From Globisporangium splendens (lineage: Eukaryota > Oomycota > Peronosporomycetes > Pythiales > Pythiaceae), in contig VFIW01000092.1 of NCBI GenBank assembly GCA_006386115.1, forward strand, positions 1 to 64,000: a DNA stretch of 64,000 bases, read 5' to 3'. A program made the translations under genes and the position numbers. Under the pieces are notes generated by a model. It did not search any database. It saw only the letters and a list, made by a program, of their open reading frames with translations, and had not been told where the DNA came from. Below are positions 2-55,381 of the stretch, piece after piece. Within the stretch, counting starts at the first letter, position 1. Every line of letters starts with the position of its first letter.

Positions 2-2218
2 CTTGCCGATGCGCTGTCAAGACGTCCGGATTATGATCCGAAGAACAAGAGTGACGACACGAACGGAGCGTGTCGACTCTGTGAAGACGTCAGCGCGATT
101 GCTACGGGAGTGACAAGCACAGTCCAAGAAGAGATCACTGAGGGATACAAGCAAGACGAAGCATGCCAAGAACTGATCAAGTATTTCAAGAATCCCTCAG
201 ACAAGGCACTCCAGAGCCTCCCACCAAGAGCAAGATCGCGTGTTCACCGTTACAGCATGCACAATGAGCTGCTGTACTATACGGTTGACGAAGGCGATCC
301 AGCGAGGATCGTTGTCCCCAACGACGAAGGTCTGCGTCATCGACTCTTGTACGAGTATCATGGCAGTCCTTCGAGTGGTCATCTCGGACGTGAGAAAACG
401 TTTCTCAACTTGTCTCGAGATTACTACTGGCCTCACATGTACAAGTGGGTTCGCAAGTATGTGCGTACTTGCGAAGTGTGCCAAAGAGTTAAGCCATCCG
501 GCTCTACTCGGGCCCCACTTCGTTCATTGGCTGTCCCTCAGGACAGTTGGAAGTCTGTGAGTATGGATTTCATATTCGGACTTCCAAGAGACAAACACGG
601 ACGCAATGGCATCCTGGTGTTTGTGGACCGATTCAGCAAGATGGTCCATCTTGCGCCGGTCTCGGATAAGATCTCGGCAGAGATGACTGCGAAAGTCTTT
701 GTAGACGTGGTGTTCCGTCTACATGGTCTGCCCTCGGAGATCGTATCAGACCGTGACACTCGGTTTACGTCAAGGTTTTGGCGACCCTCTGTTTTGGCAT
801 TTTGGAATACAAAACTATCCATGTCACAGCACACACCCAGGAGACCGCGGTCAAACGAACGAGTGAATCGTGTCCTGAACTTGTTGCGCAGTTATGCGAC
901 GTCTTTCGGAGAGTGGAGTGAGTTTCTCCCTCTTGCCGAGTTTGCGTTGAACAACTCCACGCATGTCTCGACAGGTCATACCCCGTTCTATGTGAACTAC
1001 GGACTCCACCCGAGAGTGCCAGCGTCACTAGTGGGAGAGGTTTCTACCTTAAGTGGGGGAGAGACTATGGCTAAGGAGCCACAGTCGGATCTGAATGCTG
1101 TCACAGAGTTAAAAGCGAATTTTGACTCGATGAAACCCCTAGACGACATGACAAGTCGTGAGGAACAGCAAGTCGATGACTTTATTGTGAGGAGACAAGC
1201 CGTTGTGAGGTTTGTTCGAGACGCAATTGCAAAGGCTCAGGATCTGCAAAAGGAACAAGCAGATAGGAGCGGAAGGAAGAACAAGCAAGTATATAAGATC
1301 AATGATCTTGTATTACTTAGCACGACTAATCTACCTGAACACGCAGTGTCTAACTTGGGGAGTTCGAAACTTCTGCCAAGATATATTGGACCGTTCAGGG
1401 TAGTTAAATGCAATGGTGATGCCTACACGCTAGACATTCCTAAACGCATGCGACTACACCCTACGTTCTACGTAGGTAGACTAAAGCCTTACCTTCCAAG
1501 TGGGTCAGCGAACCCTACAGAGCCTTTGGCAGACGATCAAGTTGATCCTGAAGTCGCTCCACCAGCTCGCGAAGAGTCTGTAACTCATCGTCATGGAGCT
1601 TCTTCTCGGCATAAAGGCGCTGAAGCACATCAAAGGACTCGTCCTTTATTGTCTCCAATGCGAGAAGGCGACCATGATACTCCTTCCGAAGTATCTCAAG
1701 AGAAGTCCCTGCCTCTTCCACAGAGCGCAGTAGACGTTCGTGATACGCATCACAAGCTTTCTCAGCCTTCTGGAGTCGTTCAAGCTCGGCTTGAATCTTC
1801 TCGAACCTCTGTTCGAAACGTGACTCCATTGCCGAACGCTGGGCAAGACCATCGAAGAGCAAGTCGATCTTCGACTCCTGCTCCTTCAACCGGTCTTCGA
1901 GTACCGCGTTGCGAACTTCAAGAGCCTCGATCTGAGCGCGGTGAGCACTCTTCCACTTCCAGAGTCGCTCAATCGTTTTCGCGTTCAGCCCCACCTCCTC
2001 TGATCGATCATCAGGGAGAGTGTCGTTGGATCGTTGAGTCGATAGTCGATCACGAGGATCGATCGACTCGTCGTCGAGGAGAGAAGTCGTTGAACCGTCA
2101 ACGCTTCTACAGAGTACGGTGGCTTGGCTATCCGCCGGACTCGGACACGTGGGAACCTCGAGAGACTCTTCAGTCTGATGTTCTCGACGTGGTTCACAGT
2201 TACGAGCAGAGCTTGTAG
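2..2218 (+). CDS. Chromovirus Pol, C-terminal part (integrase and chromodomain), copy A
   Basis: The frame is open from base 2 to the stop at 2216-2218. It carries the RNase H tail (LADALSRRPDYDP), the integrase HHCC zinc region near 355-490, the catalytic core (SMDFIFGLP near 560; IVSDRDTRF near 740) and a C-terminal chromodomain (FYRVRWLGYPPDSDTWEP, near 2105-2160). Integrase inserts the element's cDNA, and chromodomains typically direct insertion to modified chromatin. Compared with copy B, bases 774-895 carry a cluster of small insertions and deletions. These scramble the stretch before the last catalytic glutamate but leave the frame open. A 33-bp stretch of the linker is also missing. 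The integrase is probably inactive. Confidence 0.9.
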   Translation, partial: LADALSRRPDYDPKNKSDDTNGACRLCEDVSAIATGVTSTVQEEITEGYKQDEACQELIKYFKNPSDKALQSLPPRARSRVHRYSMHNELLYYTVDEGDPARIVVPNDEGLRHRLLYEYHGSPSSGHLGREKTFLNLSRDYYWPHMYKWVRKYVRTCEVCQRVKPSGSTRAPLRSLAVPQDSWKSVSMDFIFGLPRDKHGRNGILVFVDRFSKMVHLAPVSDKISAEMTAKVFVDVVFRLHGLPSEIVSDRDTRFTSRFWRPSVLAFWNTKLSMSQHTPRRPRSNERVNRVLNLLRSYATSFGEWSEFLPLAEFALNNSTHVSTGHTPFYVNYGLHPRVPASLVGEVSTLSGGETMAKEPQSDLNAVTELKANFDSMKPLDDMTSREEQQVDDFIVRRQAVVRFVRDAIAKAQDLQKEQADRSGRKNKQVYKINDLVLLSTTNLPEHAVSNLGSSKLLPRYIGPFRVVKCNGDAYTLDIPKRMRLHPTFYVGRLKPYLPSGSANPTEPLADDQVDPEVAPPAREESVTHRHGASSRHKGAEAHQRTRPLLSPMREGDHDTPSEVSQEKSLPLPQSAVDVRDTHHKLSQPSGVVQARLESSRTSVRNVTPLPNAGQDHRRASRSSTPAPSTGLRVPRCELQEPRSERGEHSSTSRVAQSFSRSAPPPLIDHQGECRWIVESIVDHEDRSTRRRGEKSLNRQRFYRVRWLGYPPDSDTWEPRETLQSDVLDVVHSYEQSL

Positions 2219-2545
2219 TGCTCTCGCGAGCACTAGAACGACGAGAGCCAAGCTCTTTATGGTCGTTCTCGAGCGTGCCTCCTAGGTTCCCTAGCAAACG
2301 CTCGACAAGATTCTCGTGTTCTCGAGTCGGACAAACGTCTTCCACGACTCGAGCTTCGCTGTGCTGGACTGGCCTGGATCGTCGCTGCCGGACATCTTGC
2401 GCCAAAGGAAGAACAACTCCTTGTAGAACCGACGTCCTCCACGCTTCTTGCGAATAGCGGAGATGTCGTACAAGCCGGGAGTCGTCCGCTGCCGCTTTGG
2501 CTCGGGCCGTTCTTCGCGCTTCACTTGGTCGCTTGATCGCTTCAT
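1515..2545 (-). pseudogene. Antisense ORF of chromovirus, copy A (frameshifted)
   Basis: This is the counterpart of the intact antisense frame at 53618-54667 in copy B. An ATG at 2543-2545 opens the basic N-terminus (MKRSSDQVKREERPEPKRQR). A 2-bp insertion near 2318-2325 (ctcgtgttctcg, against ctcgttctcg in copy B) then breaks the frame. The rest reads open from about 2330 down to the stop at 1515-1517 and keeps the coiled-coil heptads. Copy A lacks a short stretch present in copy B, and that deletion is in frame on this strand. Function is unknown; see the copy B entry. Confidence 0.6.
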
Positions 2546-12034: not shown

Positions 12035-13495
12035 TCATCCAAGCAACAAGAGGTACTCTTTGATCTCCCCCGGAGTCTTCCCAGCTTGCGCCAACTTGGA
12101 CATCAGGTCGGCTCGAATGGCGTGCTTCTTGGTCTCTTCCTGCACCGCCAGTTCTTTTTCCTTGAGCTCCAGCTCGCGCTTTTGCATGCGCACATGCTCT
12201 TGCTGCAGCGCAAGCTTCTCGCGCTCCATGGCGAGGAATTGCGCCGCCATCTCGTCCGACATGGGCGGCAGCACTCGTGGATCCACCGGTACACCTTGAC
12301 CGTTGGCTGCCGCGACGGCGCTCACAGCAGCAGCAAGAAAATCGTTGCCACTGAGGCGACGCGTGCTGCTCCTGGTCTGCAAGACAAGGTCGCTCGATTG
12401 CTTCACGTCTCTGTACTTGTGCTTCTTTGCACGACGCGATGAGGTGTTCACGTCACTCGTGCGTGGCACGGCCAGTGCCACTTGGCTTTCTAGAGGCGCA
12501 GCGAGTTCGGCACTGTCGTCGTCGTCGTCGTCTCGAGACTCACTGGAAGAAGATTCCTCCTCAGCTCCCGACATCGAGCCTTCCTCCTCTCTCGGTAGTT
12601 GCTGAGTTGGCTTCTTTTCCGCACTCACTTGGCCGCGTGTTCTTTTTCGATCGTTAGCAGCTTCCGAGTCGGCACCAACGTGTTGATGCTGTGGTGTTTC
12701 ACCTCCTCCGTCTTTGGTTGCGTCCACCTTGGGCTTTTTGTCGTCGTTCTTCTCGAGCTGCTCTTCATCGTTGCCGTCACCAGTAGCAGGCGCAGTGGTA
12801 CCATTCTCTTGCGTTCCTTTATCGTTTTCTCCTTCTCTTTCTCCACTCATCTCGGCAGCTGGAGTCCCCGTAGTAGCAGGAACAGCGGCGAGCGGCTTGC
12901 CCGTCGCGAACAGTGCTTCGATGCGGTCGTAGAACAAGCACATGGCGTTCAGCTTCTGCACCACCTCGGTGATCCCACGCACGCGATCGTTCGCAGTGAC
13001 TGTGAACGCAGATTGCGCAGCCATTTTCTGCGCTTTCTTGAACGACGCGATGAAGCTCTCGTACCGACTGCGCGTGACGTCGAGCGTCCACTGCGCGTGC
13101 GCGTGCTGATTCACATGACGCATGAGGCTGCGGTACCCGTCAGCCTTCTTGAGCTTCTTTCCCGCGGCGTTCGTGAGCACGACGGCCGACGCGCGCTCCG
13201 TCATGAGCTGGAAGTTCTGCGGCCGCTCGAGCCACTCCAGCATGCACAGGCGCTGCGCCTCGGTCGTGTGCGTAAACTTGCGGCGCTTGCGAAGCAGATC
13301 GGCGTCCTCGATGCTCAGCGTGCTCACCGAGGCGGTGCCGCCACTACCGACAGGTGGACCATCACGTTGTTCCCCGGTAGTAGTTTCTATCGGTTGTGCT
13401 GCTGGCTGAGCGGCGGTGGCAGCAACAGACGCGCCGTCGTCTTCGTCGCGTGGCTCATTCAAAGTGCCATTGAGGCCACTCTCACGTCGCACCAT
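12035..13495 (-). CDS. Myb/SANT-like domain protein, oomycete-expanded type
   Basis: The ATG at 13493-13495 gives 486 aa in one exon. Residues about 75-190 form a helical DNA-binding-like domain (QRLCMLEWLERPQNFQLMTE; KKADGYRSLMRHVNQHA; WTLDVTRSRYESFIASFKKA). The middle is low-complexity, with Glu/Asp runs (DDDDDD near residue 320). A basic stretch (SRRAKKHKYRD) is a likely nuclear signal. The C-terminus is a long charged coiled coil (AMEREKLALQQEHVRMQKRE) ending in a short helix (GEIKEYLLLLG). Proteins of this build form large families in Phytophthora-like genomes and may be domesticated from, or part of, DNA transposons. The specific role is unknown. The A/T-rich upstream flank (13505-13590) contains short repeats of gctttttgtaaaa and could be the promoter. 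Confidence 0.75.
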   Translation of the reverse strand: MVRRESGLNGTLNEPRDEDDGASVAATAAQPAAQPIETTTGEQRDGPPVGSGGTASVSTLSIEDADLLRKRRKFTHTTEAQRLCMLEWLERPQNFQLMTERASAVVLTNAAGKKLKKADGYRSLMRHVNQHAHAQWTLDVTRSRYESFIASFKKAQKMAAQSAFTVTANDRVRGITEVVQKLNAMCLFYDRIEALFATGKPLAAVPATTGTPAAEMSGEREGENDKGTQENGTTAPATGDGNDEEQLEKNDDKKPKVDATKDGGGETPQHQHVGADSEAANDRKRTRGQVSAEKKPTQQLPREEEGSMSGAEEESSSSESRDDDDDDSAELAAPLESQVALAVPRTSDVNTSSRRAKKHKYRDVKQSSDLVLQTRSSTRRLSGNDFLAAAVSAVAAANGQGVPVDPRVLPPMSDEMAAQFLAMEREKLALQQEHVRMQKRELELKEKELAVQEETKKHAIRADLMSKLAQAGKTPGEIKEYLLLLG

Positions 13496-13648
13496 GTTCC
13501 CTCTTCGAGCGAATAACAAAGTGCTTTTTATTTTGTAAAAAGCAGAAACCAGAGCGAGTAATGTACTTGCTTTTTGTAAAAGCAGTTTTTCATTGCATGT
13601 AATGTATTAGTACACCATGCCCATCATTCTGGGCACATGGTTTGACGA

Positions 13649-14008
13649 AGTGAGTGGTGCACACTCAGATCGGACTATCTACCGTCTGGACGCGTTTCGA
13701 AACTCCGCGATCCACGTTTAGCTCAACTCTGCTGGCCTAGGTAACCCGAATATCATGCGCCTACAAAGCTGATAGATGTTAATTGCAGCATTGACGTCTC
13801 GATCCCACATCGTTCTGCGCTGTGGATTGGGACAACGAAGGACAGCACACGACGGCTTGTATGCCACGGTGCCGTCTTCTTTCGTCGTCTGACATTTTCT
13901 CTTCTCGAGAATCTGCAAGCAACTCGAGCATCACTTACTTGTACAGTACTCATCGACGAGCACGACTGTCGCCCGCTTAGCCAGAGCCTTCGCTGGACCA
14001 TGCGCATG
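13649..14008 (-). pseudogene. Fanzor C-terminal part, copy 2 (3' side of Copia insertion)
   Basis: Reading the minus strand from the Copia border, the frame gives ALAKRATVVLVDEYCTSK, then TGA, then CSSCLQILEKRKC, then CAVLRCPN and MWDRDVNAAINIYQL, with a stop at 13718-13720. VDEYxTSKxC is the hallmark run of Fanzor/TnpB between RuvC motif II and the zinc ribbon, and DRDVNAA carries the RuvC-III Asp. The TGA takes the variable position between TSK and CSSC. A CGA-to-TGA change would explain it, but other origins are possible. The frame joins exactly to 18820-18969 when Copia and one target duplication are ignored. Confidence 0.8.
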
Positions 14009-14013: not shown

Positions 14014-14368
14014 ACTTGAAAGGCGTTGCTGAAAGTGTTGTTGTTGTGCGAAGGCAGATTTGAAAGTGAGATTGATAAGCAGTTACGTTTCCATCGCTAC
14101 ACCTAATTCACCCCAAGGGCTCCTAGAGGTTATATTCGTAAAACCTACACATGCAAAAAAACGTAGTGAACTGATATATAAAACCTTGTGTACGTTTGAG
14201 GTTCAACCCATTGAACTTGAACTTGAACTTGAAGTCCTATAAAATTCTCAGTCAAGTGATTGGCTGACGCAACTCACTTGACTGGCAGAGACACGCCTCC
14301 CGTGTCACCAGTCAAGTTCCCTCTTCAACTTGGGAAACTATTCGGATTGTGCAAGGGCATTCCCAACA
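14014..14368 (-). repeat. 3' LTR of Copia element
   Basis: On the element strand it begins TGTTGGGAATGCC and ends CCTTTCAAGT. The ending AGT departs from the usual CA, but the target duplication fixes it. It contains the (GAACTT)n tract with one unit fewer than the other LTR. Confidence 0.85.
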
Positions 14369-17300
14369 CCCCCGCTCGCTTCACAATCCTCCCCTTGAAC
14401 ATGCTTGACGTTGCACTTCTCCATGGGGTAGTTGAGAGTCTCAGACGACAGACCCTTTGTCAGGTAGTCTGTGATTTGGTTCTTGGACTCGACGTACTCC
14501 AGGACGATTTCGTTTTCCTTGAGTTTCTCGCGGATGAAATGGTAGCGGATGTCATTGTGCTTGGTTCGCGCTTGATACCCAATGTTCTTGGCGAGTGCGA
14601 TGGCGCCTTGGTTGTCTTCGAAGATCGGAGTCGCTTCATATTGCTCCAATCCTATGTTCTTGAGAAGCGTGCGCATCCAGACGCACTCCTTGACGCAGTC
14701 ACAGAGAGCCATGTACTCGGCTTCAGTCGTGCTCAAAGCTACAGTCTTCTGGAACGTGGCGCGCCAGGCAATGGGGCCACCGCAGAGCATCAGCAGGATG
14801 CCACTCATGGAGCGTCGATCATTGCGGTCACACGCCCAGTCGGCGTCGCAGAAGGCACTCAGCTTCGACTCGAGGCTCCCATCGTAGACGATTCCAACGT
14901 CCTTGGTCTTCTTCAAATACTTGACGACCTTGATGCCTGCGTCCCAGTGCTTCGGTCCAGGGTTCTCAAGGAACCGACTCAGCCTCGCGACCGCGACAGC
15001 GATGTCGGGTCGGGTACCGCACGCGAGATACATCAGACTACCGATGAGCGACCGGTAGGGCTTCGTCTTCATTTCGGCCATATCCGCTTCGGATTGTGCC
15101 TCATCACCTTTGCTGAGATGGGCGCTGGGATCGATCGGAGTCAGGCTTGGCGCGGCATTAGTCTGGCCGAATCGCTCGATCACTGAGTCGATGTAACTCT
15201 TCTGGCTGATGCTCAGCGTCTTGGCAGAAATGTCGTGATGCACCTCGATGCCCAAGATGAAGCGAGCTTGCCCGAGGTCCTTGATCTTGAAGCGCTTGCT
15301 GATGGCTTGCTTCACTCCAGCGATCATCGCCTGGTCGTTCGACGCGATGAGCATGTCATCGACGTACAGACACAAAAGGCATTTGGAGTTACCCTGGCGC
15401 TTGGTGTAGACGCACGGGTCAGCGTCTGTTGGTTCGAATCCAATCTCGCACAGGCAGCTGTCGATGGTCTCGTTCCATACGCGGGACGCTTGTTTCAGAC
15501 CGTAGAGACTCTTGCGCAGTCTGCATACGAGTTGGTTGTCATCGATGTCAGCCGTGTTTCCGATGTCCTTGGTGCCGAACTTGAGCAAGAATTCGAGCGA
15601 TCCTTCTGGGACCTCCATGAAGATTGTTTCTTCAAGGTCGCCATACAGGAAGGCTGTGTCGACGTCCCACTGCTGAACTTCCATCTGCTCAGAGCAGCTC
15701 GTTGCGAGGAACGCTCGAACCGAGGTCAATGCAGCAACCGGTGCATACGTTTCTTCATAGTCGATGCCATGGCACTGGGAGTATCCCTTGGCAACGACGC
15801 GAGCTTTGTACCGGACGACTTCACCTCGCTCGTTTTTCTTCAGGGCGAATACCCATCGGGATCCGATCGGCTTCTGGCTCTTTGGTCGGGGAACCAAATC
15901 CCACGTACCATTTGCCACTAATGATTTCAATTCGGATTCCATCGCTTCCTTCCACTTCGCGTGGTCTTCACGGCTCGTGGCCTCCCTGAAATGTTTTGGG
16001 GCCTCGCTTGCCAAGAGCGCATGCTCATCGGGATTGACGAGCGCATATCGATCATGCTCGTCGTCTCCACCACTGGCATGAACTTGGTCGGTCTTCTGTC
16101 GCTTCGGACCAGAGTAGACCGGAGTTCGAATAAGCTTCTTTCTTGGTGGCTGACGGTCTTCAGGCTCAGGCTCGTTCATTAACGCTCGAGCTCGAGACCG
16201 AGTAAGCATCCGGGCTGGAGCCTCGACGATCATGTTAGACGGCTCCTCAAAGACGTAGTCCTGAGTCACGATCTCAGACTTTACTTCGGGTAGGACGAGG
16301 CTGCGGTCATGTACCTCTTGATCCTCAGTCTCAGACTCATCGTCAGAGTCGGACTCGATGCTCAGCTGTTGGAGATCCGGACGCGAAGTCTCCATAAACT
16401 TCACAGTGCGGACAATGTGCACCAGCCCGGTGGCCACATGAAAAACACGGTAACCCTTCGACGTCTCTGAATATCCGAGGAAACGGCATTTGAATGCCTT
16501 GGCGTCGAGCTTCTTGCGTTTTTCCTTCGGGATATGGGCGTACCCTAACGCGCCAAACACCTTTAGGTTTTTCATGTTGGGGCGTCGTCCGTAGATCAGC
16601 TCATGCGGGGTCTTGGTGTTGACTGAGTTGGGGATCCGGTTGACGATCCAGGCCGCAGTGTTCACTGCTTCGGCCCACCACTTCTTGTCGACAGACTCGT
16701 GGTATAGCATGCAACGCGCCATCTCAACGAGAGTTCGGTTCATGCGCTCGGCCATCCCGTTCTGCTGGGGAGTATACGGCGCAGTCTTCTCGTGCTTGAT
16801 GCCGAAGCCAACCAAGTAGTCGACGAAACGCTTGCTAGTGTACTCGCCACCGTTGTCGGACCTGAGACGCTTGATTTTGCAGTCGGTCAAGTTCTCGAGT
16901 TCAGACTTGAAAATCTTGAATTTGTCGAGGGCTTCAGATTTCTTCTTCATGAAGTAGACCGACACGTGTCGAGAGTAGTCATCTACGAACACAATCGCAT
17001 AAAGACATCCTCCTGGGGTCTTGGTTTGCATCGGTCCCATCACGTCAGTGTGGACCAACTCAAGCACCCGCTGAGTCTTCACCTTGTTCGCAGGATGGCG
17101 TGGGAAGTTGTCGGCAGCCATCTTTCCCATGCAGCATCCTTCACAAATTTCTTCAACTGCGTCATCGTTCGTGATCGCAGGGAGTCCATCAGCCATCGTT
17201 CTGAGATGCTGGTATCTCTTGTACGGAATGTGCCCGAGCTTGGCATGCATAACCATCCACGGTGAGTTGGCACTGCCATTCGCTGCACGGCACTCTTCCT

Positions 17301-18429
17301 TGAGCACGGTGTGAACCTTGTAGACACTACCGTCGCGTTTCCCGGTCATAACCGTCTCTTGGCCGAACTTGAAGACGCACTTGTCTCGAACGAACTCGGC
17401 TCTCACTCCCTTCTCGGCGAGCTTCGACACCGAGAGTAGGTTCCCATCGAGGGCTGGGATGTAGAGCACATTCGAGAGTGTGATCTCGATGTCATCTTCC
17501 ATCTTAAGGCAAGCCTCTCCGATGCCCACCGCATCGATCTTCGTGCCGTCGGCGATAACGATCTGGATCGGAGTCTTCAGAGTCGTCAGCTTCACAAACT
17601 TCTCGCGTCGACTTGTCATGTGCGAGCTGGCTCCCGAGTCCACCAGCCACACAGACTTGTCGAGGCCCATCGCAGCTGCAAAGGCGTACCGGTGCTCGGT
17701 CCTTTCAGCAGCTCGGCGGCCCTGCTGGTCTTCAAACTTCTTCTTGCGGCAGTCGGCTTCCTTGTGCCCGACCTTCTTGCAGAAGTTGCACTTGCCGTTG
17801 AATCGCTTTGGACCGTTCGAGTTGTCGTGGCGGTCGCGGCAGTCGTGCCGGCGCTTATTGATAACAAAAGCATTCTCAGTTGGAGCACGATCGTAGCCAC
17901 TGGGGTCGGCCCCGTAGAGTGACTCGATCACTTGCATCAACCCGAGGTTCGGCGTGTTCTCCAGAACACTGGAGATCATTCGGTACTCGTCCGGGAGGCT
18001 ACCGAGGAGGAGCACGATCTGGCGGCTCTCATCAAGAACCTCTCCAATCGTCTCGAGCTTCGTCACCAGTTCCTTGAAACGGTCGACGTGCTCAGCGAAG
18101 CGCGTGCCGGACTCCATCTTGAAGCTGTGCATCCTCTTGGTGATGAGAATGCGGTTCTTCAAGGTATTGCGGTTGAACTGCTCCTCGAGGAGTTTCCACG
18201 CTTGGTCCGCTGTCAGCGCCGCTCGGATGTACACTTGGTACGTGATGCTGACTTCACCAGCGATCACACCAAGGGCCTTCAAATCGTCTTCCTTCCACTT
18301 GTTTGTCGTGCGGTCGCTCACACTGTCCATGTCGGCACGGATGATGTGCGGCAACAGTCCCTTGCGAGCGAGCTTCATCCGCATGTTGAACTCCCAGTGG
18401 AAGTAGTTGTCTTCGTTAAGCTTGTCCAT
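14338..18429 (-). CDS. Copia Gag-Pol polyprotein
   Basis: The ATG at 18427-18429 (MDKLNEDNYFHWEFNMRMKL) gives about 1363 aa with no stop or frameshift. Domains in order: a UBN2-type Gag; a CCHC knuckle (CNFCKKVGHKEADC); a protease (WLVDSGASSHMT); an integrase with its H..H..C..C finger, the core (VHTDVMGP, LRSDNGGEYTS) and NGMAERMNRTL holding the glutamate; a reverse transcriptase (KARVVAKGYSQ, LCLYVDDMLIAS); and an RNase H (SALSTTEAEYMAL-like, ending KHNDIRYHFIREKL). This order (integrase before RT) defines Ty1/Copia. The last 31 bases of the frame lie inside the 3' LTR. All catalytic motifs look intact, so it may be or recently have been competent. Confidence 0.93.
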   Translation of the reverse strand: MDKLNEDNYFHWEFNMRMKLARKGLLPHIIRADMDSVSDRTTNKWKEDDLKALGVIAGEVSITYQVYIRAALTADQAWKLLEEQFNRNTLKNRILITKRMHSFKMESGTRFAEHVDRFKELVTKLETIGEVLDESRQIVLLLGSLPDEYRMISSVLENTPNLGLMQVIESLYGADPSGYDRAPTENAFVINKRRHDCRDRHDNSNGPKRFNGKCNFCKKVGHKEADCRKKKFEDQQGRRAAERTEHRYAFAAAMGLDKSVWLVDSGASSHMTSRREKFVKLTTLKTPIQIVIADGTKIDAVGIGEACLKMEDDIEITLSNVLYIPALDGNLLSVSKLAEKGVRAEFVRDKCVFKFGQETVMTGKRDGSVYKVHTVLKEECRAANGSANSPWMVMHAKLGHIPYKRYQHLRTMADGLPAITNDDAVEEICEGCCMGKMAADNFPRHPANKVKTQRVLELVHTDVMGPMQTKTPGGCLYAIVFVDDYSRHVSVYFMKKKSEALDKFKIFKSELENLTDCKIKRLRSDNGGEYTSKRFVDYLVGFGIKHEKTAPYTPQQNGMAERMNRTLVEMARCMLYHESVDKKWWAEAVNTAAWIVNRIPNSVNTKTPHELIYGRRPNMKNLKVFGALGYAHIPKEKRKKLDAKAFKCRFLGYSETSKGYRVFHVATGLVHIVRTVKFMETSRPDLQQLSIESDSDDESETEDQEVHDRSLVLPEVKSEIVTQDYVFEEPSNMIVEAPARMLTRSRARALMNEPEPEDRQPPRKKLIRTPVYSGPKRQKTDQVHASGGDDEHDRYALVNPDEHALLASEAPKHFREATSREDHAKWKEAMESELKSLVANGTWDLVPRPKSQKPIGSRWVFALKKNERGEVVRYKARVVAKGYSQCHGIDYEETYAPVAALTSVRAFLATSCSEQMEVQQWDVDTAFLYGDLEETIFMEVPEGSLEFLLKFGTKDIGNTADIDDNQLVCRLRKSLYGLKQASRVWNETIDSCLCEIGFEPTDADPCVYTKRQGNSKCLLCLYVDDMLIASNDQAMIAGVKQAISKRFKIKDLGQARFILGIEVHHDISAKTLSISQKSYIDSVIERFGQTNAAPSLTPIDPSAHLSKGDEAQSEADMAEMKTKPYRSLIGSLMYLACGTRPDIAVAVARLSRFLENPGPKHWDAGIKVVKYLKKTKDVGIVYDGSLESKLSAFCDADWACDRNDRRSMSGILLMLCGGPIAWRATFQKTVALSTTEAEYMALCDCVKECVWMRTLLKNIGLEQYEATPIFEDNQGAIALAKNIGYQARTKHNDIRYHFIREKLKENEIVLEYVESKNQITDYLTKGLSSETLNYPMEKCNVKHVQGEDCEASGGVGNALAQSE

Positions 18430-18457
18430 GGCGGAGGAGGAGCTTGGGCTTATAACC

Positions 18458-18819
18458 ACTTGAAAGGCGTTGCTGAAAGTGTTGTTGTTGTGCGAAGGCA
18501 GATTTGAAAGTGAGATTGATAAGCAGTTACGTTTCCGTCGCTACACCTAATTCACCCCAAGGGCTCCTAGAGGTTATATTCGTAAAACCTACACATGCAG
18601 AAAAAACGTAGTGAAATGATATATAAAACCTCGGGTACGTTTGAGGTTCAACCCATTGAACTTGAACTTGAACTTGAACTTGAAGTCCTGTAAAATTCTC
18701 AGTAAAGTGATTGGCTGACGCAACTCACTTAACTGGCAGAGACACGCCGCCCGCGTCACCAGTCAAGTTCCCTCTTCAACTTGGGAAACTATTCGGATTG
18801 TGCAAGGGCATTCCCAACA
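18458..18819 (-). repeat. 5' LTR of Copia element
   Basis: It matches 14014-14368 at about 97%. It carries one extra GAACTT hexamer and is flanked on the outside by TCCCT. Confidence 0.87.
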
Positions 18820-48616: not shown

Positions 48617-49660
48617 ATGGAAGGGATTGAGACGCCGATGGGCTCGATGCCTGGAGAGACCGTGGAGCTGACGAATGAGCATTTTCCTCATTTGTCGAGC
48701 CACGAGTGGGCAGCCCTCGAGCGTATGCGAGCGGTCATCGGTGAGGCGGCTGTGATCAGTTTGCTGAGATCAGCGTCACCGGATGAGCAGAGGAACGCGG
48801 CTACGAGCTTCATGCATCACGAGATCATGAACTCTCATCGACAGCCCGCAACTCCTGTCACGACGATGAGAGTGGCACCTCTGAAGCTCGATGTATCTCC
48901 GTACCGTGGAGGAGAGAACGAACCTCTAGCGAGATGGTTCGTTGAGTTGGATGCAGCGATCACTGCAAGACAACTACGGGACCCAATGCAGCAAGTGTTG
49001 TTTGCGATGTCAAACCTTGCGGGTCGAGCGAAGAGTTGGGCGTATGGGAAGCGATTGGCAGAGCCACATTGCTTCTACGACCTGGACGACTTCAAGCGAG
49101 AGCTGAAGAAGGCTTTTGAGCCTCCGCAGAGCGAATTTCGGGCTCGCGCTGAGTTCTTAAAGCTTCGTCAGGGTAAATACGACCTACACTCGTACGCTCA
49201 ACGAGCACGATACCTCGTGTCAAGTATCGTGAATGAGCCGATTGATGCCTCAACGCAAGTTGTGACATTCATGGCAGGGCTCAATGATGGTCCAATTCGG
49301 AACCAGCTGTTCCGCGAGTACCCCAAGACGCTGGATGAAGCCATCGAGCGAGCGATGCAAGAAGAATTCAGCATCAAGCAAGCCAAGTTCAACGGTTTCG
49401 GCCCTCGCCCTGTTCGACAACACGCAGTCACACACGACGGTCCAGAACCGATGGACATCTCGTATGCCGATGCGACTACAAGCAGATACCCACGCAATGA
49501 CGGGAAGTGTTTCCGTTGTGGCAAGCCCGGTCACATCGCAAGAAATTGCAAGGTGTCCTTACCAAGCCAGCGAGCGACACACGGTTCGCAATCGAATCGA
49601 CCAGGCAGAGGCCGGCGATTCGAGCGTTCCCAACAGCCAAAAAACGGGAACGACCAGTAG
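48617..49660 (+). CDS. Chromovirus Gag
   Basis: The ATG at 48617 gives 347 aa. The retrotransposon Gag domain spans residues about 85-250 (LARWFVELDAAITARQLRDP; FKRELKKAFEPPQSEFRARA; YDLHSYAQRARYLVSSIVNE). A CCHC knuckle (CFRCGKPGHIARNC) lies near residue 297 and is followed by an Arg/Gln-rich tail. Gag builds the particle and packages element RNA. The pol frame begins in another frame before the gag stop, so Pol expression would need a shift or a separate start. Confidence 0.9.
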   Translation: MEGIETPMGSMPGETVELTNEHFPHLSSHEWAALERMRAVIGEAAVISLLRSASPDEQRNAATSFMHHEIMNSHRQPATPVTTMRVAPLKLDVSPYRGGENEPLARWFVELDAAITARQLRDPMQQVLFAMSNLAGRAKSWAYGKRLAEPHCFYDLDDFKRELKKAFEPPQSEFRARAEFLKLRQGKYDLHSYAQRARYLVSSIVNEPIDASTQVVTFMAGLNDGPIRNQLFREYPKTLDEAIERAMQEEFSIKQAKFNGFGPRPVRQHAVTHDGPEPMDISYADATTSRYPRNDGKCFRCGKPGHIARNCKVSLPSQRATHGSQSNRPGRGRRFERSQQPKNGNDQ

Positions 49661-49663
49661 GAG

Positions 49664-50429
49664 CGGGGCTCCCTACTGGGCGAACAAAGAGTTCTGTGAA
49701 TGTCGTGGAAGCGCAGAACTCTTGCCCCGGTGTGCGCAACGCACATGAAGTTTCCGCGAACAGATGTGAGCGTGTCGAGCAAGAGCCAGCCTTGATAGTC
49801 CACAAGGTTAAGGTAGATGGTTACTCAGAACCTCTACGGGCTCTTGTAGACACGGTGCGTCGAACAATTTTGTCCGCACACAAGTGGTGAGAAGGCAAGG
49901 TTTGGACCTGCCTATCTCGAACAAGGAAATGATCGTTCGCTTGGCGAATGGATCGAAAGTGACGATGCCTAAGCGCGTGTTGCGTATGGTAGTCGAATGT
50001 GATGATTTCCGAGGCGAAGATGAGTTTATTCTACTCGACCTCGATGACAAGTTTGATCTGATTCTGGGAATGCCCTGGTTGAGAAGGTACCAACCGAGCA
50101 TTGACTGGAAGAAGAAGAAGATCAGCGTCGACAAGCAAGTCGACGAAGACCTCAGCTGCCAGGCAGCAAGAGAGGTGATTTGGGCATATACATCTGTTGA
50201 AGATGTGTCTAACGAGAGTCAGGCGTGCGATGGCCCCTCACACTCAAATGACAAGCCCGTGAAGACCACTGGAGGTGGAGTAGTCAGGCGCCAGAAAAAG
50301 ACTACTCCTGTAGCCAAGAGCGATGAAGAGTTCCGCTCTGGCAGGGTTAAAGAAGACAAGAAGACCGACGAAGAAGAACGAAGATCTGCAAGCGTCCCTG
50401 ATCAAGACACAAGAGAAGGCAGAAGATGA
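49664..50429 (+). pseudogene. Chromovirus protease region, frameshifted
   Basis: Before 49855 the pol frame reads VDGYSEPLRALVDT. After it, a different frame continues sensibly (VRRQGLDLPISNKEMIVRLA; FILLDLDDKFDLILGMPWLR). The catalytic motif DTGAS is interrupted at 49850-49860 (GACACGGTGCGTCG): restoring one G would give Asp-Thr-Gly-Ala-Ser. Downstream, coding returns to the original pol frame between 50323 and 50429. The aspartic protease is thus broken in this copy. Confidence 0.78.
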
Positions 50430-53400
50430 AGTGAAGCGACAAGAACAAGCCACTTCAAGCGAATATGTGAACGTCGCAGTCTACAATGAAGAAGGTGACA
50501 GCCAGATAGTGCGTCACGTACAAGTTGAAAATCCTCCAAGTCTGGCTCAAGAATTGATTTCCTTGCCGTTGATGAGCAAGAAGACGCTTAAGCGTAGCCT
50601 GGCGAAAGGCGAAATTTCGCAAATTTGTGCGATCGTCGATGAAGTTGCCGACGATGTCATCAACACTGCGGAAGTGTTAGATGAGAGGACACGGAAGGAG
50701 AGGTTTGATGAGCAGTCGTGGGACGCTCTAAAGGCAAACCCCGTGTATGGACTTGTCAAGGAATATGCGGACATATTTCCAGACAAAGTGCCGGACGAAT
50801 TGCCGCAGGACAGAGGCATTCGTCACGAGATAGATGTACTTCCGGGAACGAAGTACTGTATCACGAGGCAATGGCCGCTACCGAAGGAACAAGTCGATGC
50901 GATCGACGAGTTCTTCGCGCAGCGACAGAAGGCTGGCCATGTGCGCGAGAGCAAGTCTCCGCACTGCAGTCCCACCTTCTGTGTGAAGAAGGCCACAGGC
51001 GGTTGGCGCATTGTTCACGCATTCAACAAATTGAATGATGCGACCATACCTGCTCAGACCCCAGTTCCACGAAAGGATATGATCCTTGATGGAATGGTTG
51101 GCAGCACTGTCTTTAGCGCGATCGATCTGAAAGACGGGTTCTATCAGATTCGAATGCGCGAGAGCGATGTACCATTTACAGCAGTTAGCACCCCTAGTGG
51201 TATGCTGTGGGAGTGGATGGTGATGCCACAAGGTCTGAAGAACGCACCAGCAACTTTCAACAGAATGGTCACGAATGTACTTCATCCATTGAGAGAGTTT
51301 GCACCGAGCTACTTTGACGACATATTCGTTCATAGTAAGGCCTCGGAAGGGAAGAAAGATGTCGATGTTCATCTTGAACATCTTCGTCAAGTCTTTCAAG
51401 TTATGCGTGAGAACAAACTGTACGCTAACTTGAAGAAATGCATCTTCTTCGCCCCTGAGATCCCTGTACTCGGTTGCTTTGTTGGCAAGAATGGCGTTCG
51501 GGTCGATCCTGAGAAGGTCAAGTCTATCGACGATTGGCCTATTCCTCAGAACATCAAACAGCTACGTCAGTGGCTGGGTTTGGCCAACTATTTGCACAAA
51601 TACACGCGCAACTATGCAGCGTTAGTGCAACCCCTCACGAGTCTTTTGAAGAAAGATAATGAGTGGGAATGGCCAGAGGAACATCAGGCAGCGTTTGCCG
51701 AAGTAAAGAAGAGCTTAAGAGAAGCTCCTGTCCTAGCTCTCGCAGACCATGAGAAGCCGTTCCATGCAGTCTGCGATGCGAGCGACTATGCCATCGGGTG
51801 TGCACTGATGCAACACGATGATGAGGGCAAAGAAAGAGTTGTGTCGTATCAGTCACGACAACTCAGGCCCGCAGAACGGAACTATCCGGTCCATGACAAG
51901 GAACTATTGGCCATGAAGTATGCATTGGCAAAGTTCCGAGTCTATTTGCTTGGTGAAAAGCAGTTCGCTATTTACACTGATCACGCATCACTGCGGACAG
52001 CTGTAAAGACGCCTCACCTATCGCAAAGAATGGCAAGATGGTTTTCCTTCTTCGCTGAGTACAACTTTGTTGTACATTACAAGCCCGGCAAGTCAAACAT
52101 TCTTGCCGATGCGCTGTCAAGACGTCCGGATTATGATCCGAAGAACAAGAGTGACGACACGAACGGAGCGTGCCGACTCTGTGAAGACGTCAACGCGATT
52201 GCTACGGGAGTGACAAGCAGAGTCCAAGAAGAGATCACTGAGGGATACAAGCAAGACGAAGCATGCCAAGAACTGATCAAGTATTTCAAGAATCCCTCAG
52301 ACAAGGCACTCCAAAACCTCCCACCAAGAGCAAGATCGCGTGTTCACCGTTACAGCATGCACAATGAGCTGCTGTACTATACGGTTGACGAAGGGGATCC
52401 AGCGAGGATCGTTGTCCCCAACGACGAAGGTCTGCGTCATCGACTCTTGTACGAGTATCATGACGGTCCTTCGAGTGGCCATCTCGGACGTGAGAAAACG
52501 TTTCTCAACTTGTCTCGAGATTATTACTGGCCTCACATGTACAAGTGGGTTCGCAAGTATGTGCGTACTTGCGAAGTGTGCCAAAGAGTTAAGCCATCCG
52601 GCTCTACTCGGGCCCCACTTCGTTCATTGGCTGTCCCTCAGGACAGTTGGAAGTCTGTGAGTATGGACTTCATATTCGGACTTCCAAGAGACAAACACGG
52701 ACGCAATGGCATCCTTGTGTTTGTGGACCGATTCAGCAAGATGGTCCATCTTGCGCCGGTCTCGGATAAGATCTCGGCAGAGATGACTGCGAAAGTCTTT
52801 GTAGACGTGGTGTTCCGTCTACATGGTCTGCCCTCGGAGATCGTATCAGACCGTGACACTCGGTTTACGTCTAGGTTTTGGCGAACTCTGTTTGGCATTT
52901 TGGATACAAAACTATCCATGTCAACAGCAGCACACCCAGAGACAGACGGTCAAACTGAACGAGTGAATCGTGTCCTTGAAGACGTGTTGCGCAGTTATGC
53001 GACGTCTTTCGGAGAGTGGAGTGAGTTTCTCCCTCTCGCAGAGTTTGCGTTGAACAACTCCACGCATGTCTCGACAGGTCATACCCCGTTCTATGTGAAC
53101 TACGGACTCCACCCGAGAGTGCCAGCGTCACTAGTGGGAGAGGTTTCTACCTTAAGTGGGGGAGAGACTATGGCAAAGGAGCCACAGTCGGATCTGAATG
53201 CTGTCACAGAGTTAAAAGCGAATTTTGACTCGATGAAACCTCTAGACGACATGACAAGTCGTGAGGAACAGCAAGTCGACGCCTTTATTGTGAGGAGACA
53301 AGCCGTTGTGAGGTTTGTTCGAGACGCAATTGCAAAGGCTCAGGATCTGCAAAAGGAACAAGCAGATAGGAGCGGAAGGAAGAACAAGCAAGTATATAAG

Positions 53401-54342
53401 ATCAATGATCTTGTATTACTTAGCACGGCTAATCTACCTGAACACGCAGTGTCTAACTTGGGGAGTTCGAAACTTCTGCCAAGATATATTGGACCGCTCA
53501 GGGTAGTTAAATGCAATGGTGATGCCTACACACTAGACATTCCTAAACGCATGCGACTACACCCTACGTTCTACGTAGGTAGACTAAAGCCTTACCTTCC
53601 AAGTGGGTCAGCGAACCCTACAGAGCCTTTGGCAGACGATCAAGTCGATCCTGAAATCGCTCCACCAGCTCGCGAAGAGTCTGTAACTCATCGTCATGGA
53701 GCTTCTTCTCGGCATAAAGGCGCTGAAGCACATCAAAGGACTCGTCCTTTATTGTCTCCAACGCGAGAAGGCGACCATGATACTCCTTCCGAAGTATCTC
53801 AAGAGAAGCCCCTGCCTCTTCCACAGAGCGCAGTAGACGTTCGTGATACGCATCACGAGCTTTCTCAGCCTTCTGGAGTCGTTCAAGCTCGGCTTGAATC
53901 TTCTCGAACCTCTGTTCGAACCGAGACTCCATTGCCGAACGCTGGGCAAGACCATCGAAGAGCAAGTCGATCTTCGACTCCTGCTCCTTCACTTGGTCCT
54001 CGAGGCTCTCGCACCGATCCGAAAGGATCGCATCGCGAACTTCCAGTGTCTCAATCTGAGCGCGGTGAGCACTCTTCCACTTCCAGAGTCGCTCAATCGT
54101 TTTCGCGTTCAGCCCCACCCCCTCTGATCGATCATCAGGGAGAGCGTCGTTGGATCGTTGAGTCGATAGTCGATCACGAGGATCGATCGACTCGTCGTCG
54201 AGGAGAGAAGTCGTTGAACCGTCAACGCTTCTACAGAGTACGGTGGCTTGGCTATCCGCCGGACTCGGACACGTGGGAACCTCGAGAGACTCTTCAGTCT
54301 GATGTTCCCGACGTGGTTCACAGTTACGAACAGAGCTTGTAG
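50323..54342 (+). CDS. Chromovirus Pol (RT, RNase H, integrase, chromodomain), copy B
   Basis: Open for about 1,339 codons. RT: WRIVHAFNKLNDATIPAQTP, FSAIDLKDGFYQIRM, then YFDDIFVHS (near 51310). RNase H: VCDASDYAIGCALMQ and YTDHASLRTAVKTP. Integrase: HHCC finger near 52455-52590, core SMDFIFGLPRD, IVSDRDTRFTSRFW, and HPETDGQTERVNRVL with the catalytic Glu. A Ser/Pro/Arg/His-rich linker follows (53640-54120), then the chromodomain (FYRVRWLGYPPDSDTWEP). Unlike copy A, the integrase core is intact. The linker and chromodomain DNA is also open on the opposite strand (next entry). Confidence 0.93.
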   Translation: MKSSALAGLKKTRRPTKKNEDLQASLIKTQEKAEDEVKRQEQATSSEYVNVAVYNEEGDSQIVRHVQVENPPSLAQELISLPLMSKKTLKRSLAKGEISQICAIVDEVADDVINTAEVLDERTRKERFDEQSWDALKANPVYGLVKEYADIFPDKVPDELPQDRGIRHEIDVLPGTKYCITRQWPLPKEQVDAIDEFFAQRQKAGHVRESKSPHCSPTFCVKKATGGWRIVHAFNKLNDATIPAQTPVPRKDMILDGMVGSTVFSAIDLKDGFYQIRMRESDVPFTAVSTPSGMLWEWMVMPQGLKNAPATFNRMVTNVLHPLREFAPSYFDDIFVHSKASEGKKDVDVHLEHLRQVFQVMRENKLYANLKKCIFFAPEIPVLGCFVGKNGVRVDPEKVKSIDDWPIPQNIKQLRQWLGLANYLHKYTRNYAALVQPLTSLLKKDNEWEWPEEHQAAFAEVKKSLREAPVLALADHEKPFHAVCDASDYAIGCALMQHDDEGKERVVSYQSRQLRPAERNYPVHDKELLAMKYALAKFRVYLLGEKQFAIYTDHASLRTAVKTPHLSQRMARWFSFFAEYNFVVHYKPGKSNILADALSRRPDYDPKNKSDDTNGACRLCEDVNAIATGVTSRVQEEITEGYKQDEACQELIKYFKNPSDKALQNLPPRARSRVHRYSMHNELLYYTVDEGDPARIVVPNDEGLRHRLLYEYHDGPSSGHLGREKTFLNLSRDYYWPHMYKWVRKYVRTCEVCQRVKPSGSTRAPLRSLAVPQDSWKSVSMDFIFGLPRDKHGRNGILVFVDRFSKMVHLAPVSDKISAEMTAKVFVDVVFRLHGLPSEIVSDRDTRFTSRFWRTLFGILDTKLSMSTAAHPETDGQTERVNRVLEDVLRSYATSFGEWSEFLPLAEFALNNSTHVSTGHTPFYVNYGLHPRVPASLVGEVSTLSGGETMAKEPQSDLNAVTELKANFDSMKPLDDMTSREEQQVDAFIVRRQAVVRFVRDAIAKAQDLQKEQADRSGRKNKQVYKINDLVLLSTANLPEHAVSNLGSSKLLPRYIGPLRVVKCNGDAYTLDIPKRMRLHPTFYVGRLKPYLPSGSANPTEPLADDQVDPEIAPPAREESVTHRHGASSRHKGAEAHQRTRPLLSPTREGDHDTPSEVSQEKPLPLPQSAVDVRDTHHELSQPSGVVQARLESSRTSVRTETPLPNAGQDHRRASRSSTPAPSLGPRGSRTDPKGSHRELPVSQSERGEHSSTSRVAQSFSRSAPPPLIDHQGERRWIVESIVDHEDRSTRRRGEKSLNRQRFYRVRWLGYPPDSDTWEPRETLQSDVPDVVHSYEQSL

Positions 54343-54667
54343 TGCTCTCGCGAGCACTAGAACGACTAGAGCCAAGCTCTTTATGGTCGTTCTCGAGCGT
54401 GCCTCCTAGGTTCCCTAGCAAACGCTCGACAAGATTCTCGTTCTCGAGTCGGACAAACGTCTTCCACGACTCGAGCTTCGCTGTGCTGGACTGGCCAGGA
54501 TCGTCGCTGCCGGACATCTTGCGCCAAAGGAAGAACAACTCCTTGTAGAACCGACGTCCTCCACGCTTCTTGCGAATAGCGGAGATGTCGTACAAGCCGG
54601 GAGTCGTCCGCTGCCGCTTTGGCTCGGGCCGTTCTTCGCGCTTCACTTGGTCGCTTGATCGCTTCAT
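53618..54667 (-). CDS. Antisense ORF of the chromovirus: basic, coiled-coil protein
   Basis: The ATG at 54665-54667 opens 349 codons on the strand opposite to Pol; the frame is even open further upstream into the LTR (to 54937). The N-terminus is basic with a likely nuclear signal (MKRSSDQVKREERPEPKRQR), followed by IRKKRGGRRFYKELFFLWRK. The middle, opposite the chromodomain, is low-complexity. The C-terminal 150 residues form a strong coiled coil (ESRFEQRFEKIQAELERLQK; LHDDELQTLRELVERFQDRL). Over that coiled coil the sense strand reads as disordered Ser/His/Pro/Arg linker, the usual look of a non-coding complement. The start lies 77 bp from the 3' LTR, so LTR U3 could act as an antisense promoter. 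No known family was recognised. The protein could be expressed, or the frame could be a by-product; copy A holds a frameshifted version. Confidence 0.62.
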   Translation of the reverse strand: MKRSSDQVKREERPEPKRQRTTPGLYDISAIRKKRGGRRFYKELFFLWRKMSGSDDPGQSSTAKLESWKTFVRLENENLVERLLGNLGGTLENDHKELGSSRSSARESTTSSVRNCEPRREHQTEESLEVPTCPSPADSQATVLCRSVDGSTTSLLDDESIDPRDRLSTQRSNDALPDDRSEGVGLNAKTIERLWKWKSAHRAQIETLEVRDAILSDRCESLEDQVKEQESKIDLLFDGLAQRSAMESRFEQRFEKIQAELERLQKAEKARDAYHERLLRSVEEAGASLEILRKEYHGRLLALETIKDESFDVLQRLYAEKKLHDDELQTLRELVERFQDRLDRLPKAL

Positions 54668-54743
54668 GGTCAATTGGAAAGTGAGAGCGGGTGCCTCTTC
54701 CGAAAGAAGTAAAGTCCGTGATGGAACTTTAAGGGAGGGATGA

Positions 54744-55381
54744 TGTAATGGGCTCAGGCTGCCATTACATGCAAGGTGGCTCTTTGTGTGTGTCACACAC
54801 CACCTTGTGGAAGTGCATTGTGGGTGCGAAGATATTGGGTGAAACACATAAGAGTGATCCCCACATGCACTTGTGACGTCATCGTCTGACGTCAGAGCAA
54901 TCTGTGTCTGAGTTGAGTGTTGGTCGCTCGCAATCATTGAGATTCGGCGTGATTACGCACAACAGTACTCTAGACACGTGAGTGATGGTTCCTACTTGGG
55001 AAACTGCACAGGTGATGAGACCGACGTGTCTCTGCCACCTAAAGTGAGTGGCTGTAGCCAATCACTTTGCAGGGAATTTTCCACGGGACTTCAAGTTCAA
55101 GTTTCTCGAAGATACCCTGGGTTCAACCTCAGTGTACCCAAGGTTTTATATATCAGGTTCATAGGTTTTATTGTGCATGTTTAGGTTTTAGTTGTAAAAT
55201 GTGTAAGATCCCTTGGGGTTCATTTGTAAGTAGCGACAGGAACCATAAGCATTTCAATTCAGTTGCAATTTTACCATCAAGCCCTCAAGTCTTCCTTCCT
55301 CCCTCCAAGTCGGGATTGCTTCCTCTGGCACAAGCGTGTGTGCCGTGCTTGAGGGACTGTTTGAAACAGCGCCATTTTACA
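54744..55381 (+). repeat. 3' LTR of chromovirus copy B
   Basis: It runs from TGTAATGGG to CATTTTACA. It is closest to the LTR at 2622-3263. The CRE pair lies at 54874-54881 and 54887-54894, and a TATATA motif lies near 55147. Confidence 0.88.

Follow-up and report, generated by a model that had tools for sequence, protein, structure and literature searches.

On the minus strand of a 64,000-nucleotide stretch of the genome of the oomycete Globisporangium splendens (positions 1 to 64,000 of its contig, C190 in our numbering; hereafter, the window), opposite the 3' end of a retrotransposon pol gene, lies an uninterrupted antisense open reading frame (ORF) of 349 codons. Comparisons among its copies indicate that this frame, which we call ASORF, almost certainly encodes a real protein under selection. 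The element that carries it is a long terminal repeat (LTR) retrotransposon of the Ty3/gypsy type with a chromodomain. We consider ASORF, together with the mechanism proposed below, to be probably an accessory antisense gene of this element, whose N-terminal third occupies the spacer that separates pol from the 3' LTR and whose remainder is overprinted on the pol end.

The assignment of the element rests on its domain content and on the order of pol, which runs from reverse transcriptase (RT) through RNase H (RH) to integrase (INT) and ends in a C-terminal chromodomain, as in chromoviruses. Above the Pfam cut-off, Pol matches RVT_1, RT_RNaseH, H2C2, rve, SH3_Tf2-1, and Chromo. The relevant features of the window are as follows.

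53618..54667, minus strand: ASORF, 349 codons plus stop (uninterrupted frame; homologues).
54343..54667, minus strand: antisense-only part of ASORF, codons 1-108, past the Pol stop codon (dN/dS; stops in all three sense frames).
54608..54667, minus strand: basic N terminus (MKR...KRQR), resembling a bipartite nuclear localization signal, a pattern judged by eye (basic clusters in homologues).
54410..54604, minus strand: conserved N-terminal domain, residues 22-86, with three predicted helices (AlphaFold2; motif LFDI...FYKERFF.WRR...DSW.TFVRLENE in the homologue alignment).
54137..54409, minus strand: middle part, residues 87-177, low confidence and probably disordered, about two thirds of it facing the Pol chromodomain (pLDDT; dN/dS).
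53624..54136, minus strand: predicted C-terminal coiled coil, residues 178-348, facing the Pro/Ser-rich Pol linker (pLDDT; heptad periodicity; dN/dS).
54669..54684, minus strand: candidate core promoter, an initiator-like motif (TCACTTT) and then a weak block resembling the flanking promoter region, ending one base before the ATG (conserved motif).
1515..2405, minus strand: remnant of ASORF in copy A, matching ASORF codons 73-349 (in-frame loss of 21 nt; insertion of 2 nt near codon 76).
50323..54342, plus strand: pol ORF, with RT, RNase H, integrase, SH3-like region, linker, and chromodomain (ORF list and Pfam).
53620..54150, plus strand: Pol linker, rich in Pro, Gly, and Ser and nearly neutral on the sense strand (sense dN/dS 0.81-1.29; composition).
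54151..54333, plus strand: Pol chromodomain, Pol residues 1277-1337 (PF00385, E 6.6e-12; sense dN/dS 0.36-0.50 in pairs of clade A with B or C).
54742..55219, plus strand: 3' LTR, end approximate (direct repeats D1/D10; the partner LTR starts at about 47903).
48617..49660, plus strand: gag ORF of the same element (Retrotrans_gag, CCHC).

Because the Pol stop lies at 54342, ASORF and pol share about 724 nt, and antisense codons 1-108 lie outside the overlap. Within the overlap, the first codon positions of the two strands are opposite each other, the third sense position is paired with the second antisense position, and the second sense position with the third antisense position. A preliminary description of the window had placed a 349-codon frame opposite the Pol linker and chromodomain, starting 77 bp from the 3' LTR, with a basic N terminus and a strong C-terminal coiled coil. 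All of these features hold up: the frame from 53618 to 54667 is unbroken, its ATG at 54667 is about 75 bp from the LTR (direct-repeat) boundary at 54742, the N terminus reads MKR...KRQR, and the coil is predicted with high confidence (see below). The open frame is 444 codons in all, and an in-frame upstream ATG at 54937, in the LTR, would yield a protein of 439 amino acids. We do not take this longer version to be the main form, for two reasons: of the seven most distant homologues, five begin at the 54667 Met, and the upstream extension varies among clades. Clade C gene models, however, start 16 codons upstream of this Met.

The antisense-only part is under purifying selection, as judged from substitutions between copies. 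For the region 54344-54667, we computed the ratio of nonsynonymous to synonymous changes (dN/dS) for eight pairs chosen as clade representatives. Clade A against B, C, C, and X gave 0.34, 0.39, 0.28, and 0.35; B against C gave 0.19 and X against B gave 0.28; the two pairs within clade A had just four or five changes and hold little information. When the antisense frame was shifted by one or two bases, the four A contrasts gave 0.79-0.92, and the B-C and X-B contrasts gave 0.76-2.73. All three sense frames contain stops in this part, and two of them give 0.80-1.44 in the A contrasts. Clade-majority differences amount to 0.31 at the first antisense codon position, 0.28 at the second, and 0.48 at the third. 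Insertions and deletions (indels) tell a similar story: of those present in at least two copies, the multiples of three were 4 of 4 in the antisense-only part, 5 of 5 in the overlap, and 1 of 21 in the LTR (uncorrected for relatedness). With single-copy indels included, the fractions were 5 of 9, 6 of 12, and 8 of 70. The Pol-only part, examined as a control, had 7 shared indels that are multiples of three and 13 others, chiefly from a few aberrant copies.

Within the overlap, substitutions and the structural model make it very probable that, in the window family, constraint is divided between the strands: an antisense coiled coil lies over a weakly constrained Pol linker, and the chromodomain lies over an antisense segment that is predicted to be disordered. 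Sites were sorted by their effect on both strands in six chosen pairs, with CpG and transition bias ignored. Over the linker (53620-54150), the antisense ratio (NN/NS) was 0.36, 0.43, 0.49, 0.38, 0.32, and 0.33 (Fisher p 2.6e-6 to 7.7e-10), and the sense ratio (NN/SN) was 0.87, 1.17, 1.29, 1.12, 0.90, and 0.81. Over the chromodomain (54151-54339), three pairs of A with B or C gave sense ratios of 0.47, 0.50, and 0.36 and antisense ratios of 1.08, 1.17, and 1.10. Two contrasts (L009-L062 and L080-L089) are separate, and each is significant over the linker; contrasts that share a clade A branch are not independent. The composition of the two proteins differs as well: Pro, Gly, and Ser make up 33% of the sense linker vs. 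9% of the antisense coil, which agrees with the preliminary description of the linker as disordered.

We also asked how often the antisense frame would stay open if selection acted on Pol alone. In this null, codon pairs were permuted among places with the same amino-acid pair, so that the sense proteins and the codon pairs were kept. It predicts 11.9-12.7 antisense stops in 2 x 240 codons, and none were observed (P 0.0005 in one pair and 0/2000 in the other five of the six). Antisense identity was also above the sense-only expectation (P 0.0145 or less). The preliminary description had proposed that each strand carries a real protein segment, to be judged by frame retention and by dN/dS that takes the overlap into account. 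Both came out in its favor, with 0 stops vs. about 12 and with antisense ratios of 0.32-0.49 over the linker, and the proposal is supported: the antisense strand is constrained over the linker and the sense strand over the chromodomain, with purifying selection past the Pol stop.

AlphaFold2, given an input of 30 sequences, returned a model with a mean predicted local distance difference test (pLDDT) score of 72.7 and a predicted template modeling score of 0.32. Residues 1-20 have low scores, and residues 22-86 are predicted to form a three-helix domain (helices 38-52, 61-76, and 79/80-85; block pLDDT 77-89 over residues 21-80 and 59 over 81-90). Modeled alone, the N-terminal domain has the same helices, with a mean pLDDT of 69.4. 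Residues 87-177 have low confidence, with block pLDDT values of 30-47 over residues 91-180. Residues 178-348 are predicted to be one helix of 171 residues, with 10-residue blocks mostly at 95-98 (67-85 at its start and 72 at its end), and the hydrophobic periodicity of this coil peaks at 3.5 (19.9, vs. 8.0 or less at six other periods). The model thus has the same division as the selection tests, with the low-confidence part facing the chromodomain and the long helix facing the linker.

The protein has no recognized domain. The window ASORF has no Pfam match above the cut-off and five weak matches below it, and its homologues have weak matches alone, mostly to coiled-coil families. TRP28 (transposase 28, PF04195) had no match at E 1 in the proteins of the window and copy A, nor at E 0.5 in five homologues and two fused gene models. 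A bZIP domain was not found in the window ASORF and had a below-cut-off match (E 0.15) in homologue P0029 only. Searched by sequence against PDB chains, the N-terminal 95 residues gave no matches at E 10; a tblastn search of ASORF against phage records found none, and a scan of viral contigs gave four pattern matches, none of which were confirmed.

Most copies of the element that were recovered retain the frame. We searched the 53.3-Mb genome (195 contigs) with ASORF; of 475 candidates, 116 matches were scored, and 100 of these have no internal stop. With a clade C protein (P0029) as the query, 110 of 492 candidates were scored and 88 have no stop; at least one place is common to both lists. 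Sequences were fetched for 80 copies (L009-L088, including the window's own) and for five more from the clade C query (L089-L093). Since all of these were found through ASORF itself, element copies that lack it would be missed and are uncounted. ASORF is intact (start Met to stop, at least 330 amino acids) in 65 of the 80 copies and in all five of the others. Among the 80, the Pol part is open (at least 560 codons) in 64, and both are intact in 53; among the 75 loci of at least 2,700 nt, 10 have an intact ASORF and a broken Pol.

Protein searches returned 81, 84, and 66 homologues, from G. splendens copies and from metagenome or other contigs; the near-identical proteins are named FI667_... 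and belong to G. splendens. Seven homologues (P0069, P0070, and P0072-P0076) are 41-47% identical over at least 95% of the query, and five of them share the start Met. The basic N-terminal clusters are retained in most of the aligned homologues, down to about 41% identity. In three G. splendens gene models (P0045, P0064, and P0077), the antisense protein is joined to sequence from other elements that resembles gag or pol; these fusions are probable annotation artifacts.

The copies also seem to have exchanged sequence. Relative to copy L009, copies L062 and L069 have an antisense-only part that is 98-99% identical, whereas the pol-only part differs by 13-14% and the LTR is 93% identical; L072 joins an A-like pol end to a B-type antisense N terminus. 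These patterns indicate recombination near the pol end.

The second copy in the window, copy A, had been described as retaining most of the frame, including an internal length change that is in frame on the antisense strand. Codons 73-349 are indeed matched there. The N-terminal domain is not kept in frame, owing to a 2-nt insertion at 2316 (near ASORF codon 76), and the 21-nt loss preserves the frame on either strand and hence does not favor the antisense one; we rejected it as evidence.

Several observations weigh against a selected protein or against a clean division of constraint. First, ASORF is broken in 15 of the 80 copies, and in 11 of those the Pol part is open; therefore, ASORF need not work in cis. 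Second, a TGA stop at R73, a nearly invariant residue, recurs in 8 of 60 clade A copies. It is a change from CGA to TGA at window position 54451, with equivalents in L017, L028, L032, L036, L038, L039, L053, and L064. The nearest relative of each of these copies lies outside the group of eight, and no site apart from the stop itself separates them from the other copies, although five sites differ in frequency; the stop could have arisen by a recurrent CpG change or could be a shuffled allele. Third, the third sense frame of the antisense-only part also has low dN/dS (0.46-0.61). This frame has stops, and the mirrored signal is expected because its position 3 faces antisense position 3. Fourth, four single-copy indels in the antisense-only part and six in the overlap are not multiples of three. 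Finally, antisense freedom opposite the chromodomain is not general: B against C gave 0.20 (sense) and 0.26 (antisense), X against B gave 0.47 and 0.63, and A against L062 had three changes in all over the chromodomain.

Other families in the genome have similar antisense frames. As controls, we picked four loci (L094-L097) from 150 listed SH3_Tf2-1 matches. In L094 and L096, which look like one family by eye, no comparable antisense ORF lies against pol; the 194-codon antisense ORF of L094 is over 1 kb beyond the pol stop and is cut off by the end of the locus. A long antisense ORF opposite the end of pol is present in L095 and L097. With further loci, and counting the window family as family 1, the families are as follows.

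Family 2: L095, L098, and L099; antisense frames of 511-514 amino acids; 106 matches listed.
Family 3: L097, L100, and L101; 536 amino acids in L100, and the frame of L101 ends early; 83 matches per half, many partial.
Family 4: L102 and L103; an open frame of 614 codons in L103; 34-35% identity to family 3.

The selection test was run on one pair each for families 2 and 3. In the non-overlapping part, L098 against L099 (family 2) gave dN/dS of 0.40 over 313 codons (p 1.5e-10; shifted frames 1.11 and 1.56), and L100 against L101 (family 3) gave 0.34 over 363 codons (p 2.7e-11; shifted frames 1.25 and 1.09). As a further point on the negative side, the antisense ratio for the overlapped part alone was not significant in family 2 (0.64, p 0.19) or in family 3 (1.22, p 0.7); thus, the divided overlap is demonstrated only for the window family.

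The overlap phase is the same in all seven loci checked, from four families (the broken frames of L102 do not overlap as they stand). Coil-like C termini score in families 1, 2, and 4 (L103); a coiled coil in family 3 was considered and was not confirmed by a crude scan of 56 residues. The antisense proteins of families 1 and 3 may well be homologous. Family 1 against family 3 gave an hhalign probability of 90 (E 1.6e-6), and family 1 against families 3 and 4 together gave a probability of 4 at full length (E 0.01) and 44 for the domain only, with a score above all 100 column shuffles; the domain against family 4 alone gave 7. The family 2 antisense protein showed no relation to families 1 or 3 by a test of this type. 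Families 3 and 4 share a conserved Cys/His motif, H.(E)C(x6)PCGV...C(x2)C, which was not seen in family 1 and which possibly binds zinc. We would put at about even the chance that oomycete chromodomain retrotransposons have an ancient, lineage-wide antisense gene, found here in at least four families in the same phase, with the Pol linker of the window family in effect a by-product shaped by the antisense coil. If this is true, one strand of pol hosts the functional domain of another gene.

We then considered how ASORF might be expressed. In the available text of PMC3599244, the oomycete core promoter is a 7-nt initiator (INR; most commonly TCATTCT) with a 7-nt flanking promoter region (FPR; MWTTTNC) two bases downstream, mostly 50-100 nt from start codons, and Pythium ultimum is included. 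The sequence just upstream of the ASORF ATG is TCACTTTCCAATTGACC in clade A and TCACTTT(C/G)CAATYGGC(C/A) in most copies of clades B and C. The INR half fits this description, and the FPR half has one or two mismatches. Across 85 loci of clades A, B, and C and intermediates, 77 have the INR-like motif TCACTTT(C/G)C no more than 30 nt from the start, five have a variant, and in three the start was not matched by the pattern. In the spacer between pol and the LTR, around this motif, A and B differ at about one third of the sites. A scan of the window, with a pattern that was written after the motif was seen, found three matches vs. 0.25 expected; two of these correspond to this site, one in copy A and one in copy B. 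The preliminary description had attributed the antisense transcript to LTR promoter activity; the best candidate start site (54669-54684) lies instead between the ORF and the LTR boundary, that is, in the internal region. Two points speak against this candidate: the motif is closer to the ATG than the 50-100 nt that PMC3599244, as far as available, gives as usual, with a weak FPR half, and by eye none is evident in families 2 and 3. On balance, we lean toward ASORF having its own promoter just upstream of the ATG.

By analogy, the ASORF product is most likely an oligomeric nuclear regulator that acts in trans, with the nuclear, trans-acting part of this reading at even chances. In integrated copies, the antisense mRNA would begin just inside the 3' LTR, at an initiator of the oomycete type. 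The basic protein would enter the nucleus, would oligomerize through its coiled coil, and may act in trans on transcription or chromatin of the element, like the antisense proteins of plant retrotransposons (proposed) and retroviruses (known). Copies with a broken ASORF and an open Pol part fit a trans-acting product. That the nuclear role is argued from the basic N terminus and from analogy counts against it.

The strongest competing explanation, to which we give somewhat less than an even chance, is that the protein is real and not a nuclear regulator: it could be a cytoplasmic structural protein, an RNA-binding or anti-silencing factor, or a partner of Pol or integrase. Long coiled coils suit scaffolds and tethers, the window protein has no Pfam domain above the cut-off, and its DNA is shared with the linker and the chromodomain. 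However, most aligned homologues keep the basic N terminus, families 3 and 4 have, on our reading of the alignment, the Cys motif (H.EC...PCGV...C..C), and the analogous Grande protein is nuclear, according to the available text of PMC7264820.

It is improbable that the antisense RNA is what matters (as double-stranded RNA, small RNAs, or transcriptional interference) and that the protein is incidental. Antisense transcription would overlap the 3' end of pol, and antisense transcripts of elements are described as possible silencing triggers in the available text of PMC7264820; however, low antisense dN/dS, shared indels in threes, and conservation at 41% identity are not expected of a noncoding RNA, and an RNA role can coexist with the protein. 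The least probable explanation, already contradicted by the present tests, is that the antisense ORF arose by chance, makes no protein, and is open only owing to Pol codon bias and the recent common origin of the copies: long antisense frames opposite coding DNA can occur by chance, and open frames among copies are not independent because many copies are young and alike, but there are no stops where about 12 are expected with Pol proteins and codon pairs kept, antisense dN/dS is well below 1 both where Pol is free and past the Pol stop (shifted controls about 0.8-0.9), and near-full-length homologues exist at 41-47% identity.

Antisense genes beside the 3' LTR have precedents. HBZ is an antisense accessory gene beside the 3' LTR of human T-cell leukemia virus type 1 (HTLV-1), and its product is a nuclear protein with a C-terminal coiled coil; among plant elements, Grande and RIRE2 are in the same Tat group as Retand, and the fungal element Boty is Ty3/gypsy. 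Compared by features, ASORF resembles HBZ in its position beside the 3' LTR and in its C-terminal coiled coil, and it differs in having no bZIP match at the cut-off and a candidate start site that is internal instead of in the LTR. According to the available portions of PMC11963269 and PMC7264820, antisense extra ORFs between pol and the 3' LTR (aORF-3R) include Retand ORF4/TRP28, Grande gene23, and RIRE2 in plants. The first source also names HTLV-1 HBZ as an example of an antisense gene, and the second reports that Grande gene23 is transcribed from its own upstream promoter and that Boty, of Botrytis and Sclerotinia, has an antisense ORF between pol and the 3' LTR.

As far as these sources describe the plant genes, ASORF is like them in being an antisense gene by the 3' LTR, in most copies, with no known homologues outside the elements and a suspected nuclear or regulatory role. 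Of the 80 copies here, which were found by the ORF itself, 65 have an intact antisense ORF at the pol-3' LTR end. Unlike the plant ORFs, which lie between pol and the LTR, ASORF is about two thirds overprinted on pol. Retand, as described, belongs to a non-chromovirus lineage; here, the element has a chromodomain, the host is an oomycete, and the TRP28-type domain was not found. Boty, compared by its description only, is similar in being an LTR element from outside plants whose antisense ORF lies between pol and the 3' LTR. Chronos, an oomycete Ty3/gypsy element, also has a C-terminal chromodomain; in the accessible part of PMC5348765, it is described as having a dual RNase H, the second of archaeal type, whereas Pfam finds one RNase H region here. 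The word "antisense" has no matches in the main text of that paper. More broadly, our literature search found no prior report from oomycetes among titles and abstract openings, with most subscription papers outside its reach. What appears to be new, from the sequence comparisons, is overprinting on pol with divided constraint, in a chromodomain element of an oomycete host, by a protein without a recognized domain.

Previous descriptions of antisense accessory genes concern LTR elements of plants, one element of fungi, and retroviruses, and the functions of these genes are mostly unclear (available parts of PMC11963269 and PMC7264820); the present case is in an oomycete. ASORF is found at more than 200 listed places; it is overprinted on a gene for an essential enzyme, and the way in which the two strands divide the constraint can be measured. 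It offers a natural system for studying two proteins that share one stretch of DNA. By analogy, it is also a candidate regulator of an abundant repeat family in the genome of a plant pathogen. For annotation, it is a warning: many "hypothetical proteins" of G. splendens are ASORF.

The window contains other repeats. An identical 298-nt direct repeat (D3, at 8065-8362 and 13649-13946) brackets a region with an ORF of 494 amino acids (12035-13519, minus strand), which was found at two genomic places among six scored candidates and has no Pfam match at E 0.01. We considered D3 as an LTR pair around another antisense ORF and dropped this idea, as no LTR features were seen by eye. Also on the minus strand, at 14338-18459, is a Ty1/copia polyprotein that is open over 1,373 codons.

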